From IMG/VR virus record IMGVR_UViG_3300009124_000097, positions 1 through 24,995 of that record: a stretch of DNA of 24,995 nt; one strand, given 5' to 3'. The position numbers were made by a program, and so were the translations under genes. Numbering within the stretch: position 1 is the stretch's first letter; each line of letters starts with the position of its first letter. Positions 4,567 to 8,906 of the stretch are shown one piece after another. The stretch comes from a virus. The notes beneath the pieces were generated by a model. It made no database searches. It was given only the letters and a program-made list of their open reading frames with translations, and was not told the origin of the DNA.

Positions 4567-4714
4567 GTTCGATTATAATACGTTGCTTTACCTCTCCTCT
4601 ACTATTTACAACAGTCTGTCGAATAACGTTAGCATTCAATAATGAGGAGATATTATCTACAAGGTTCTTCGCAATTACCTTGTTTGTTTCTTCTTTCCAG
4701 TTTTCAGTTTTCAT
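4559..4714 (-). CDS. 51-residue hypothetical protein
   Basis: The ATG at 4714 (MKTENWKEETNKVIAKNLVD) is preferred over an upstream in-frame start at 4753, which would lie deep inside the preceding small gene. The end overlaps the glutaredoxin start by eight bases. The protein looks like an amphipathic helix followed by two short strands (NVIRQTVVNSRGEVKQRIIIEHD). No family is recognised. Confidence 0.55.
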   Translation of the reverse strand: MKTENWKEETNKVIAKNLVDNISSLLNANVIRQTVVNSRGEVKQRIIIEHD

Positions 4715-4829
4715 TATTTTGCCATTCGTCAATTTGTTCTTGTGTTGGAACAATCCACCTAAAATTTGTGTCCTCTCTGATAAATTCTTCGTTCATCTTT
4801 TCATAAGTTTCAGGTGTAAGTTTTTCCAT
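4704..4829 (-). CDS. 41-residue small protein
   Basis: An ATG at 4829 opens a 41-codon frame starting MEKLTPETYEKMNEEFIRED and ending VPTQEQIDEWQNNEN, then TGA inside the next gene's start region. The acidic helical composition and exact tiling between neighbours support a real gene. Function unknown. Confidence 0.5.
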   Translation of the reverse strand: MEKLTPETYEKMNEEFIREDTNFRWIVPTQEQIDEWQNNEN

Positions 4830-4881
4830 AATCAATCTCACTACTCTTAATTGTCATTGACCAAATAACTACTTTAGTCAT
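4810..4881 (-). CDS. Possible 23-residue peptide gene
   Basis: An ATG at 4881 overlaps the stop of the thioredoxin gene and opens a 23-codon frame (begins MTKVVIWSM) that ends inside the next small gene. The tiling suggests either a translated micro-gene, a decayed gene whose start survives, or simply translational coupling across the gap. Very short; treat as tentative. Confidence 0.25.
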   Translation of the reverse strand: MTKVVIWSMTIKSSEIDYGKTYT

Positions 4882-5161
4882 TATTCACTTCACTTTCGAT
4901 ACCGTAACGATTAAAAGAATTTCTTAAATTCCACATTATTTTATCTACGCCAGTAAACCTTTCAAGTTCAATACCTTCAGAATCAATAATGATAAGTGTT
5001 GGTACACCATCATGTGGATATTTCTTGATAGCTGGATTATCAGATGATTCATCAATATACTCGATGTGTTTTTTTCTAGAATCATTCATTCTAGAAATAT
5101 AACGTTTTACTGATCCACAAGGGATACAGTTTTCGTCATGAAAAAATAAAAATCTAGTCAC
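4874..5161 (-). CDS. Thioredoxin-like protein
   Basis: The product has 95 residues from a GTG at 5161, preceded by GGAGG at a good distance; an ATG at 5176 gives five extra residues but lacks a comparable ribosome site. Thioredoxin signs are a strand (TRFLFFHD), active site CIPC at 12-15, and a cis-proline loop GVPT (Pro54) before the strand LIIIDSEG. The active-site dipeptide is Ile-Pro rather than Gly-Pro. It would act as a cytoplasmic disulphide reductant, for example for phage or host ribonucleotide reductase. It overlaps the upstream gene by eight bases. The glutaredoxin-like gene two small genes downstream suggests a redox pair. Confidence 0.8.
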   Translation of the reverse strand: MTRFLFFHDENCIPCGSVKRYISRMNDSRKKHIEYIDESSDNPAIKKYPHDGVPTLIIIDSEGIELERFTGVDKIMWNLRNSFNRYGIESEVNND

Positions 5162-5468
5162 GTTGCCTCCAGTCATCAGGTTTTTCTCTTTGAAACCAAT
5201 CTACAATTTCATCTGCCCCATCAAACCCCGTTTTATAATTAGATGGGTCGGGGTCTCCTAATCCCATCTTATTCATAAAATCATCCATACTACCCTCCTG
5301 AATATCTTGAGTAGCTTGACGACGTGCTTTGTTCAACCAATCTCTTGCCGTAGTATATGACTTGGCAATCTTCTCTGCCCAGATCATATCCTCTAATTTG
5401 ACTTCTTCATTATTTGCAATTCTCTTGCAAATAAACTCCAATCGAAGTCTGTATTGGGTAGATAGCAT
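5154..5468 (-). CDS. Conserved phage protein of unknown function, 104 residues
   Basis: The protein is mostly helical and charged. Its N-terminal half (LRLEFICKRIANNEEVKL and WAEKIAKSYTTARDWLNKAR) suggests a helical bundle, and its C-terminal tail is acidic and Asp/Gly-rich. It resembles small hypothetical proteins common in T4-like cyanophages. It begins 24 bases after the 69-residue gene, the only sizeable gap in this cluster, which holds a possible promoter box. Confidence 0.7.
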   Translation of the reverse strand: MLSTQYRLRLEFICKRIANNEEVKLEDMIWAEKIAKSYTTARDWLNKARRQATQDIQEGSMDDFMNKMGLGDPDPSNYKTGFDGADEIVDWFQREKPDDWRQRD

Positions 5469-5489: not shown

Positions 5490-5497
5490 TATTTATT
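5490..5497 (-). promoter_or_regulatory. Possible late-promoter-like box
   Basis: AATAAATA on the minus strand, 21 bases before the ATG at 5468, overlapping the TAA stop of the upstream gene. The spacing equals that at 48-55, but the downstream genes look early or accessory rather than structural, so confidence is lower. Confidence 0.3.
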
Positions 5498-5702
5498 CTT
5501 CAGGGTTATCTTTTTTATTAAACCCAAATGGAGATTCTTTATCTTCTAATGCCAATTTAAGAGCAACTCCACCAACTGCTTCCATGACTTTGAGAATGTC
5601 TTCCGGTTTTGCATCTTCACCAAGTTCTTTGGCAACGTACCAATACTTTGGCCAAAATGTTTCTCCTGCTTTTTTATAGTCTTCGAGTGTAAGAATTTTC
5701 AT
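5493..5702 (-). CDS. Conserved phage protein of unknown function, 69 residues
   Basis: This small acidic protein begins MKILTLEDYKKAGETFWPKY and continues with a helix (PEDILKVMEAVGGVALKLAL) and a charged tail. Its ATG overlaps the methyltransferase stop (ATGA), so it is translationally coupled to the modification trio. A helper role there is possible but nothing in the sequence shows it. No domain is recognised. Confidence 0.7.
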   Translation of the reverse strand: MKILTLEDYKKAGETFWPKYWYVAKELGEDAKPEDILKVMEAVGGVALKLALEDKESPFGFNKKDNPEE

Positions 5703-6817
5703 AGTTTAGATAATACTTCTTTGTAAATGTTTTCGGCAATTGCTTTCATCATTAGTGGAGGAACCATACGACCAACACGTTCTGTTTGTTGTGAATGTGT
5801 ACCAGTAAGAATGAAATCGTCAGGAAGTGATTGAATACGTTTGAGTTCTGGAATAGAAAGTACTCTGTCTTCCTTCCAGTGAATTAAACCACCACTAGCA
5901 GTAAGTGTAGGAGATGGTTTAAAGAATGATGCCCTCTTTGTATTGAAACAATGACCCTTTTCATGATAGTCCATCCCAGATAAAATCTTTTTAGGATTCT
6001 TTGGCATCTTCTTTACAACACTCTGATAGATACCACTATTCAACATATGTTCAGTCAAAGACTGAATATTTTCAGGATCGTTTTCAACACCATCAATGAT
6101 ATCACCAATAGTAGTATCCTTTGATGATGTAGGAGGGAAAAGAGAAGATACTGTTAGTACGTTCAATCCAATGTTATCTGCAATATCCTGTCTAACAGCA
6201 ATGAAAATAAGTCGTTCTCTTGCTTGACCAACACCATAATGAGATGATTTCATCACTTTGGAAGTGACAAGATAACCAATCTGTTCAAATGCATTGGTAA
6301 TTTTAGCATAATAAGTCTTTGCCTCACCAATTGTCAATCCCTTGACATTTTCCGCGACAATAACTTTTGGCTGAATACCTTTGGCAACACGGATAAATTC
6401 AAAGAATAAGTCTTCAATGTTTTCAACTTTCTTACCATCAGAATAATTCTTTGTCTTACCCCAACCATCGGAGTGTTTAGAACCCTCACCCCGACACATA
6501 GATCCTGCAACAGAAAATGCAGAACAAGGTGGTGACCCATCAAGGATATCTAGTTCACCAGGTTTCAGTCCAGTAATCTTAAGAAAGTCCCCACCAGTCA
6601 ATTGTTTGATGTCATCAGGAACAATATAAGTAGAAGGATAATTTGCAGAATATGTCTTTCTTGCTTCTTCAACAAATTCATTAATACAAAGAATTTTACC
6701 ACCAGCAAGACGATACCCCGTGGAAGAACCACCTCCACCGGCGAATGTTGATATGACTTTAAACTTTTCTAGTGCCTCACCGTCGTAAACATCTTGTAAT
6801 TTATATGGTAACTTCAT
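5699..6817 (-). CDS. C5-cytosine DNA methyltransferase with altered motif X
   Basis: The 372-residue protein has the motifs of the Dcm/HhaI family in order: motif I FAGGGGSSTGYRLAG at 25-39 (SAM binding), motif IV GSPPC with catalytic Cys98, motif VI ENV at 156-158, motif VIII QARER at 198-202, a target-recognition region at about 205-310, motif IX-like LSIPELKRIQSLPDDF at 320-335, and motif X VGRMVPP at 348-354. Motif X normally reads GN(A/S)VPP; here Asn is replaced by Arg350. That residue lies near the SAM methionine moiety, and a basic residue at the equivalent position of engineered M.MpeI (N374K, as I recall) allows carboxy-SAM use. The ATG overlaps the AsnB-like stop. It modifies cytosine in DNA; whether the group added is methyl or carboxymethyl is the open question. 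Confidence 0.93.
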   Translation of the reverse strand: MKLPYKLQDVYDGEALEKFKVISTFAGGGGSSTGYRLAGGKILCINEFVEEARKTYSANYPSTYIVPDDIKQLTGGDFLKITGLKPGELDILDGSPPCSAFSVAGSMCRGEGSKHSDGWGKTKNYSDGKKVENIEDLFFEFIRVAKGIQPKVIVAENVKGLTIGEAKTYYAKITNAFEQIGYLVTSKVMKSSHYGVGQARERLIFIAVRQDIADNIGLNVLTVSSLFPPTSSKDTTIGDIIDGVENDPENIQSLTEHMLNSGIYQSVVKKMPKNPKKILSGMDYHEKGHCFNTKRASFFKPSPTLTASGGLIHWKEDRVLSIPELKRIQSLPDDFILTGTHSQQTERVGRMVPPLMMKAIAENIYKEVLSKL

Positions 6818-8211
6818 AAAAATAATTTCTTATAGTGGTTAGTATAATATGTTTTTGGAGATTCGACAATATCTTCATAGAGACTTTTAATACCCATTCC
6901 ATCCTGAAAGGCAACTTTCTTTCTATCAACAATATTGTCAGGAAGTTGTCCTCTAAATGACTCTTGGAGGATTGCTTTAGGTCTAGACTTTCCATCCCAA
7001 ACAATATCCTGACTTAACCCAAGAGCAGACTCAACTAATTGAGTGTTCAAGAATGGTAATCTACATTCTATACCATACTTCATGAAGATTTTGTTACACC
7101 TAGAAAAGTTTTTACGATGTTGAGATCCAAATAAATCAACTCGATAATTAGTCCAACCCTTATCTTGAATACCATGATAACTCATACCATATGATGCCCA
7201 GAGTTCATCACTTCCCTCACCAGACATAATTACCTTGAACCCATCTTCACTAATTCTACGAGCAAGTTGAATACAAGGATAACCAATTTCAACTTGCGCT
7301 TTGTAAGGCATTTCAATAGTTTTAATTACATCATTCACATCATCAATATTAGGAGGTTCAACTTTAACTTCTCTAAGTTCAACTCCCAAATATTTAGCAA
7401 CTTCTCTAGCTGACCGCAAGTCTTTTGAATTTTCATCATGGACAGCTGTGTAAGTAACAAGATTTGGTATGTGTTGTGAAGCAATTAATGTGGTAATTGC
7501 AGAATCAATACCACCAGAGAGGAGACATGCAACAGGAACATCAGAAATAGTTCTTTCATAAGATCCTTTGGTGATACCATTATAGATGTTTATTTTAGAT
7601 GTATCAACGTCCCAAGTAGATGTATCTACAATATGTTCTCTAATATTATACCAATATCCCTCCTCCACAGAATAATCAGGTCCTACCTTTATAAAGGATC
7701 CCGGTTCTAACATTTTTATAGTTTTACCATGTTCTCCTACTGCAAGAAGACCCTTTATCTCTGAACAAAAACTAAACGAAGGAAATATACCTGTAATAAG
7801 TGAATAGTGAAGTGGAACTTCCCCATGCCTATCTCTTACAATCGTAATTGATCCATCGCCTTGAGTGAATGCAATCGCAAACATTCCCTCAACTTTGTCC
7901 AAGGCGCCAATTCCATACTTGTCTAATAAAGCACAAAGAACCTCAGTGTCACCTGAAGTTCTAGTTTCAATATTCAACTCATCTCTAAGTTCACGATAAT
8001 TCCAAATCGTACCATTAAAAATCATCGTAGTAGAACCATAGACAAATGGCTGATTTGAATCACTACTAGTATCAATAATAGACAAACGGACATGTCCAAA
8101 ATAGACATTATCCGTTTGAATAATTCCTTGGCTATCTGGTCCACGATGAGCTATCGTATCAAGACCTTTTTCAATTTGGGGAAGGTCGAATCCTCCAATA
8201 ATTCCACACAT
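6814..8211 (-). CDS. asnB: AsnB-type asparagine synthetase / class II glutamine amidotransferase
   Basis: The N-terminal glutaminase domain starts with the catalytic Cys2 (MCGIIGG) and carries HRGPDSQG at 22-29, NGTIWNYRELR at 66-76 and SGDTEV at 86-91. The C-terminal synthetase domain has the PP-loop SGGIDS at 232-237 and GEGSDELWASYG at 331-342. The family hydrolyses glutamine and passes ammonia to a carboxylate activated by ATP, normally aspartate. At 465 residues it is shorter than typical bacterial AsnB (about 550), the loss being mainly C-terminal. The usual RDxxGxKPLYY reads RDRHGEVPLHY. Similar asnB genes are known in cyanophages. It is coupled by overlaps to the CmoA-like gene before it and the methyltransferase after it, so its substrate might be a modified base rather than aspartate. 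Confidence 0.92.
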   Translation of the reverse strand: MCGIIGGFDLPQIEKGLDTIAHRGPDSQGIIQTDNVYFGHVRLSIIDTSSDSNQPFVYGSTTMIFNGTIWNYRELRDELNIETRTSGDTEVLCALLDKYGIGALDKVEGMFAIAFTQGDGSITIVRDRHGEVPLHYSLITGIFPSFSFCSEIKGLLAVGEHGKTIKMLEPGSFIKVGPDYSVEEGYWYNIREHIVDTSTWDVDTSKINIYNGITKGSYERTISDVPVACLLSGGIDSAITTLIASQHIPNLVTYTAVHDENSKDLRSAREVAKYLGVELREVKVEPPNIDDVNDVIKTIEMPYKAQVEIGYPCIQLARRISEDGFKVIMSGEGSDELWASYGMSYHGIQDKGWTNYRVDLFGSQHRKNFSRCNKIFMKYGIECRLPFLNTQLVESALGLSQDIVWDGKSRPKAILQESFRGQLPDNIVDRKKVAFQDGMGIKSLYEDIVESPKTYYTNHYKKLFL

Positions 8212-8906
8212 TACTTAATTGCAATAACTCCAGCAAACTGATGATTTCTCCAGAAGATCTGACAGTCTTTGAAACCAGCACACCATATCATAGACTTGAG
8301 TTCTTCCCAAGTATTTGGTTTCAACATGTCGCGAAGTTCTTTCTCTTTGTCCATGATCTCATCTGCAGTGAATGACTTCTTCTTGTAGTCATAGTGATTG
8401 AATGTCAGTAGTTCTTGAAAGAATGCATTCTCACACATCAACTTCTCTGCGAAGATGAATGCACCACCTTCATTTAGACCCTGATAGATTTTGTTGATTG
8501 TATCTTGACGAGTAGTCTTTGGCATGAACTGAAGAGTGAACAATGATGTCACCAAAGAACAATTCTTGAACTCATAGTTGGTAACATTACCACGAACAAA
8601 ATCTAGAATTGCCCAAGGATAGTCTTTACGGATCTCTTTGTATCTCTCATCCAAATCATCATAGAACCCACCAGCAAGTTCAACACCTACGTATTGAACC
8701 TGTTTACGAGACTGATTATTGGCAAGGATCATCTTGGTCAGTTTACCAGTAGAACAACCAACATCAACGACTTTAGTATGATCTTCCACAAAGTATCGAG
8801 AGAACGATACAGTATCCTCCAGGAGGTTTGAGTAACCCCGAATAGATTTGTCAATATGATTATCGAAACCTTCTGGCGAATGTGCGAAAGAAAAGTCGTA
8901 TGTCAT
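8211..8906 (-). CDS. CmoA-like SAM-dependent enzyme (carboxy-SAM synthase family)
   Basis: This 231-residue class I methyltransferase-fold protein has SAM motif VVDVGCSTGK at 46-55 and acidic Glu76 ending strand two. Beyond the generic fold it matches E. coli CmoA (recalled from memory) in several blocks: GYSN at 24-27, FTLQF at 123-127, KIYQGLNEGGA at 139-149, HYDYK at 171-175, and the AGF...W...F...VIAIK tail. CmoA converts SAM and prephenate to carboxy-SAM, which CmoB uses on tRNA. No CmoB is visible here, but a C5-cytosine methyltransferase is. CmoA Arg199, which binds the added carboxylate, aligns with Glu188, so carboxy-SAM synthesis is plausible but not secure. A plain methyltransferase is the alternative. 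It overlaps both neighbours. Confidence 0.8.
   Translation of the reverse strand: MTYDFSFAHSPEGFDNHIDKSIRGYSNLLEDTVSFSRYFVEDHTKVVDVGCSTGKLTKMILANNQSRKQVQYVGVELAGGFYDDLDERYKEIRKDYPWAILDFVRGNVTNYEFKNCSLVTSLFTLQFMPKTTRQDTINKIYQGLNEGGAFIFAEKLMCENAFFQELLTFNHYDYKKKSFTADEIMDKEKELRDMLKPNTWEELKSMIWCAGFKDCQIFWRNHQFAGVIAIK

Follow-up and report, generated by a model that had tools for sequence, protein, structure and literature searches.

The window analysed here, a cyanophage fragment (the hosts being marine cyanobacteria) that covers a virus record of 24,995 bases at its full length, carries three minus-strand genes with overlapping starts and stops, which encode a CmoA-like protein, a protein that joins a glutamine amidotransferase (GATase) domain to an asparagine-synthetase-like one, and a C5-methyltransferase. 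Together they are interpreted, with a probability of roughly 0.78, as a DNA hypermodification operon carried by a T4-like phage of Synechococcus, in which CmoA, CmoX and an amidating ligase would yield 5-carbamoylmethylcytosine. The ligase is not the CmoY that Synechococcus phage S-B43 has at the same place: it fills the CmoY slot with clean borders, and its glutaminase site is intact. The use of ammonia as the amine and the nature of the final base are what we infer. What is new is that the decorating ligase has been exchanged repeatedly and with gene-precise borders, and that a specific base can be predicted for the window's phage. The features concerned are as follows.

5699..6817, minus strand: cmoX, predicted DNA cytosine C5-carboxymethyltransferase (92.7% identity to S-B43 CmoX over 1-372; ungapped against 8YF3; PF00145)
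5768..5770, minus strand: codon CGT of Arg350 in motif X, GRMVPP (same position as Arg350 of SpCmoX, PDB 8YF3)
6524..6526, minus strand: codon TGT of Cys98, catalytic nucleophile of the SPPC motif (Cys98 of SpCmoX according to PMC12783734)
6814..8211, minus strand: LigG (name used here), glutamine amidotransferase plus asparagine-synthetase-type ligase of 465 aa, predicted to amidate 5-carboxymethylcytosine (PF13522, PF13537, PF00733; AsnB fold, Z 44.2; glutaminase and PP-loop residues unchanged across 57 rows; stands in for S-B43 CmoY)
8211..8906, minus strand: cmoA, predicted carboxy-SAM synthase (93.1% identity to S-B43 CmoA; E. coli CmoA 4gek, 6.6e-28)
5493..5702, minus strand: 69-aa ORF that overlaps the stop codon of cmoX (matched in position by a 210-nt gene in S-B43, RN05-S and RB11-B)

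The Synechococcus phages RN05-S, RB11-B and S-B43 cover 72%, 65% and 43% of the window, respectively, at 84-85% identity. A stretch of about 590 bp (window ~4569-5155), which includes most of a thioredoxin-like ORF (4874-5176), is without a counterpart at that place in RB11-B, and the 69-aa ORF is without a Pfam match. The CmoA protein is homologous to E. coli CmoA over its length (residues 11-231 align with 39-256 of 4gek). In this alignment Glu stands at the E. coli position numbered Arg199, which we take to be a carboxylate contact, and several phage CmoAs have an Arg one helical turn later.

The preliminary description had proposed that the motif X asparagine of the methyltransferase is replaced by arginine, that the catalytic motifs are intact and that, next to a CmoA-like gene, the substitution marks a dedicated carboxymethyltransferase. 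This reading is correct, and Arg350 and its role are already in print. The residue lies in a 372-aa ORF, in the local context QTERVGRMVPPL, and falls on the Asn of IGNAVP in a HMMER alignment with M.HaeIII (1dct); the protein has the C5-methyltransferase fold (PF00145 over residues 19-366, 9.9e-53) with an intact Cys98 in SPPC, aligns with 8YF3 from residue 1 to 372 and, with Arg at position 350 and cmoA in its neighbourhood, has the features by which CmoX is recognized. In December 2025 the CmoX of S-B43 was shown to be a DNA cytosine carboxymethyltransferase, which uses carboxy-SAM (Cx-SAM) and not SAM and targets GC; in its crystal structure (8YF3) Arg350 contacts the carboxylate of the carboxymethyl group of carboxy-SAM, as anticipated for a residue facing the SAM site, and R350N is dead (PMC12783734, from the portion of its text available, as throughout). 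S-B43 CmoA is a proven carboxy-SAM synthase, CmoY adds glycine, and S-B43 DNA contains 5gcxmdC (PMC12783734). In the same work E. coli BL21 provided Cx-SAM by means of its own CmoA. The window operon resembles this system in gene order, Arg350, Cys98 and the identity of both flanking proteins. The precedent of M.MpeI also holds: N374K is an engineered DNA carboxymethyltransferase in which a basic residue at the motif X Asn allows Cx-SAM use (PMC12783734), differing from the window CmoX in that its residue is Lys and engineered, and its sites CG, while the Arg in the window is natural.

Arg350 is not a chance substitution, since Arg occupies the motif X position in 80/80 close relatives (the best 80 of 361 CmoX loci) and in 80/80 rows of a wider viral scan. 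Among 92 methyltransferase rows from bacterial contigs the position is more varied (39 Met, 35 Asn, 17 Arg, 1 Leu). The scans of viral and bacterial contigs used a search profile built from six C5-methyltransferases, five of which carry Arg, so that the scan leans to Arg; CmoA was not used in the selection, and of the 395 ORFs matching the profile only those aligned through motif X were counted (n=381). A CmoA-like gene lies within 6 kb of 92/97 Arg enzymes and of 0/75 non-Arg enzymes (39 Met, 35 Asn, 1 Leu), and in the bacterial contigs alone of 16/17 against 0/75, at a bit cut-off of 60 that was brought down from 150 after a divergent group at 86-149 bits had been noticed; at 150 bits the neighbour is found for 33/80 Arg enzymes of the wider viral scan and 6/17 of the bacterial one. 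The predicted linkage of Arg to a CmoA-like neighbour is thus borne out, and Arg without CmoA is not common. A Fisher test gives p = 2.7e-43 but takes no account of relatedness among the rows. Most of the Arg enzymes belong to a single clade, which leaves only 3 phylogenetically independent contrasts; these agree in nearly all random pairings (p = 0.25), and the Arg label changes 4 times on a 180-row tree; the association therefore rests on few independent events.

Whole-record searches account for most of the five exceptional Arg enzymes: three have a partial CmoA match on the same viral contig (L161, L172 and L187, that of L161 being only 30 residues at the contig end), and a bacterial one (L307) has CmoA on another contig of its assembly; in the fifth (L203), a 6.7-kb fragment with CmoX near its end, no CmoA was found in the whole record. 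An apparent further exception, Moraxella phage Mcat8, was rejected: its annotation lists no CmoA, yet the adjacent ORF (L135 5995-6642) scores 101 bits as a divergent CmoA-like gene. No CmoA was found in the complete 141-kb genome of Melnitz-3, which has Leu at the motif X position. In the reverse direction, within the stretch covered, 68 of 80 CmoA loci have an Arg methyltransferase (two in 7 of these), 2 have another C5-methyltransferase and 10 have none. Since three phage loci pair CmoA with a C5-methyltransferase that lacks this Arg, Arg350 is probably one solution among several for carboxymethylation.

These three loci, in two Staphylococcus phages (vB-SscS-F1 and SPbeta-like; L137 5950-8468, L138 5980-7679) and in L222 (7160-9932), place CmoA beside a C5-methyltransferase of another family (motif X VVGGVINQL and motif IV GSPCQSF in L137 and L138; GGFPCQGF in L222), with a CmoY-like ligase also present in L137 and L222; DNA carboxymethylation may have arisen separately in them, and a search for SPPC and Arg350 would overlook it. 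The divergent CmoA group (HVREQLPWYD, 86-149 bits to the CmoA profile), which comprises the Mcat8 ORF and similar ORFs in L142-L221 and L302-L327, adjoins Arg methyltransferases both in viruses and on contigs of bacteria (Endozoicomonas, Verrucomicrobia); it is not known to make Cx-SAM. A lead for adenine carboxymethylation is L282, in which a DPPW protein (414-968, adenine N6-methyltransferase-like by eye), a 372-codon ORF (953-2068) and CmoA (2032-2745) overlap on one strand and no C5-methyltransferase was found in the locus. In Yersinia phage fHe-Yen9-02 (L134 14965-17043) a CmoX-like GRVCVPQ protein carries a long insertion, intein-like by eye, right after the catalytic PPC, and CmoA lies about 13 kb upstream.

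In contrast to the conserved flanks, the gene between CmoA and CmoX differs among these phages. S-B43, S-B05 and RB11-B have a 271-aa CmoY there and the window a 465-aa GATase ligase of AsnB type with no DNA homology to it; RN05-S has 25 nt between CmoA and CmoX, and in S-CRM01 the two genes overlap. Neither ligase profile matches anywhere in the complete genomes of RN05-S and S-CRM01, and tblastn at E 1e-5 found no match to the window ligase in S-B43. The window ligase is not an orthologue of CmoY: it has a GATase domain, and its synthetase half is related to CmoY by remote profile homology only (hhalign 99.5%, 22% identity over 232 columns). The borders of the exchange are sharp. DNA identity between the window and S-B43 is 89% up to the CmoA stop and 84% again from the CmoX start, with nothing alignable between, the homology ending within ~4 bp of the CmoA stop and resuming within ~3 bp of the CmoX start. 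Metagenome pairs have these borders too. Compared with L022, a CmoY locus, the window shows 95.2% identity over 2614 bp, ending 4 bp before the CmoA end, and 90.8% over a further 1665 bp that begin 2 bp ahead of CmoX; compared with L063, which has no ligase, it shows 90.7% over 3795 bp and then 85.5% over 1665 bp. In some metagenome pairs one border is blurred by other inserts (ParB-like genes, a second CmoX).

Near CmoX in the best 80 of 361 CmoX loci (IMG/VR), a GATase ligase is found 49 times, CmoY 23 times and neither 8 times, proportions that are not population frequencies because this sample leans to the window's relatives. Both domains are present at 45 of the 49 GATase-ligase loci, the other 4 having the synthetase part alone and being read as cut by the contig end; of the 8 loci without a ligase, 5 have CmoA immediately upstream, and the others are truncated contigs or carry inserts. 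The ligase state, known for 74 of the 77 distinct CmoX proteins placed on a tree (51 GATase ligase, 17 CmoY, 6 none), changes 13 times, against a least possible number of 2 and a mean of 21.0 for shuffled states, so that the exchange is recurrent and the states are still clustered. Unsupported branches can inflate the figure of 13; the starred branches force at least 8 changes for the GATase ligase and at least 7 for CmoY. No mention of such a ligase exchange was found in the available portion of PMC12783734.

Other genes are also present in this region. A ParB-like ORF of ~315-349 aa lies between CmoA and CmoY in L021, L023, L047 and L083, and an ORF of ~445 aa, DGQHR/HNH-like by eye, in L026 and L048, which again suggests that the CmoA-CmoX interval acquires genes. 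L051, L052, L055, L082 and L084 (translated) and L054 and L059 (by gap size) have a second, tandem CmoX paralogue of 375 aa between the GATase ligase and CmoX; it keeps GRMVP and has a different target-recognition region, and therefore probably a second target motif.

An AF2 model of the window ligase (pLDDT 92.9, pTM 0.90) has the whole two-domain AsnB fold, as matched to E. coli AsnB 1ct9 (Z 44.2, rmsd 2.4 over 445 residues; Foldseek TM 0.86), a likeness of fold rather than of function, and its glutaminase and adenylating residues are intact. Cys2, R42, N66, G67, D88, the SGG-DS PP-loop and E332 are invariant in 57/57 rows, and K432 in 56 with one gap; the rows are what remains of 100 ORFs classed as GATase ligase after a start and length filter (89) and removal of identical ones. 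These residues presumably have the catalytic roles that they have in AsnB. The position of AsnB Glu76, which we take to be a glutamine contact, is Thr68 in the window ligase and Thr in 41/57 rows. The dN/dS of the GATase half is 0.06-0.15 over 36 pairs, a rough estimate with dS often >1, which argues that the glutaminase half is in use. An invariant glutaminase site that is held by purifying selection makes 5-carbamoylmethylcytosine the likely product.

The other half of the protein links it to CmoY. The fold of the CmoY model itself corresponds to that of the synthetase domain in asparagine synthetase (Z 22.8, rmsd 2.7 over 254 residues), and a Lys-x-x-x-Glu is common to the window ligase (K304/E308) and CmoY (K98/E102), where AsnB has Val/Arg. 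From these sequences K304 and E308 may be inferred to hold the shared 5cxmC substrate. None of the invariant columns of the GATase ligases corresponds to the His-x-Asn-Leu-Gln that is invariant in CmoY (H224, N226-Q228). Unlike AsnB, to which its identity is ~33% over aligned columns, the window ligase has KAQVE for VTTIR in the pocket region and is linked to cmoA and cmoX; the 74 loci with its close relatives have both CmoX and CmoA in 50 cases, CmoX in 13, CmoA in 9 and neither in 2. The differing pocket region and this linkage (72/74) argue against aspartate as its substrate. With a glutamine-hydrolysing domain and an asparagine-synthetase-like ligase beside CmoX and CmoA, it fits the description, in architecture and neighbourhood, of the GATase-bearing, CmoX-associated ligases of PMC12783734 (its second cluster, with A0A7T0Q3R0), for which glutamine-derived ammonia was proposed as substrate and whose recombinant enzymes were insoluble. 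A relative at 42% identity lies beside CmoX and CmoA in Streptomyces phage TurkishDelight, and other relatives have identities of 37-62%. The window ligase differs from that cluster in its partner, a CmoX that in near-identical relatives goes together with CmoY. An apparent fusion of cmoX and ligase in Streptomyces contig L311 was rejected, because the open frame of 970 codons is an artefact of high GC content and cmoX is read in a different frame.

As the ligase occupies CmoY's place between the same genes and is its remote homologue with the pocket Lys-x-x-x-Glu in common, it might instead act like CmoY and join glycine or a different amine to 5cxmC, the glutaminase domain being a remnant or serving another use; further ligase clusters with unknown amines in PMC12783734 also speak for this. 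It is unlikely, given a glutaminase site without a single substitution in the 57 rows, purifying selection on that half and the absence of the CmoY His-x-Asn-Leu-Gln from the invariant columns. More distant readings discard the pathway itself. The PHROG label of this CmoA family is tRNA methyltransferase and the ligase keeps the whole AsnB fold, so that CmoA could serve tRNA (cmo5U), adjoining the methyltransferase by accident, and the third gene could be a true asparagine synthetase for host metabolism; however, no tRNA genes were found in the window, no CmoB was found in S-B43 (PMC12783734, in the text available), CmoX and/or CmoA accompany nearly all ligase loci and the AsnB pocket sequence is replaced, which together make this highly improbable. 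Family assignments alone would read the methyltransferase as an ordinary 5mC enzyme with a neutral Arg, but this is ruled out in practice by the published biochemistry of the 92.7%-identical SpCmoX, which takes only Cx-SAM and is killed by R350N (PMC12783734), and by the tracking of CmoA by Arg.

The amidating pathway would accordingly run in three steps. The window CmoA would convert SAM and prephenate to carboxy-SAM, and CmoX, with Arg350 binding the carboxylate, would carboxymethylate cytosine at C5, probably within GC, a specificity assumed from the S-B43 orthologue; both activities are predicted from ~93%-identical orthologues for which others have shown them. The ligase would then adenylate the carboxylate of carboxymethylcytosine with ATP, and ammonia freed from glutamine in its N-terminal glutaminase domain would yield 5-carbamoylmethylcytosine, a primary amide, where S-B43 CmoY forms the glycine amide. 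This base is the DNA counterpart of the tRNA nucleoside ncm5U. Among the matches listed from the open-licence PubMed Central literature we found no report of 5-carbamoylmethylcytosine in DNA, nor any paper on the CmoA-CmoX-ligase DNA system besides PMC12783734.

More broadly, we see about an even chance that closely related cyanophages keep CmoA and CmoX constant while the decorating enzyme at one slot varies like an allele, being a glycine ligase, an ammonia ligase or absent, with gene-precise borders, the window's phage having 5-carbamoylmethylcytosine; this would be a serotype-like switching of DNA chemistry between 5cxmC, 5-glycyl-cxmC and 5-carbamoylmethyl-C, which host nucleases that recognize the modified base may drive. 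The exchange of the ligase constitutes a natural experiment, in which near-identical phages, isolates included, are expected to differ in the group carried on the same cytosine. It points to a predicted enzyme for a new amide base in DNA, and makes testable whether host restriction selects hypermodification chemistry.
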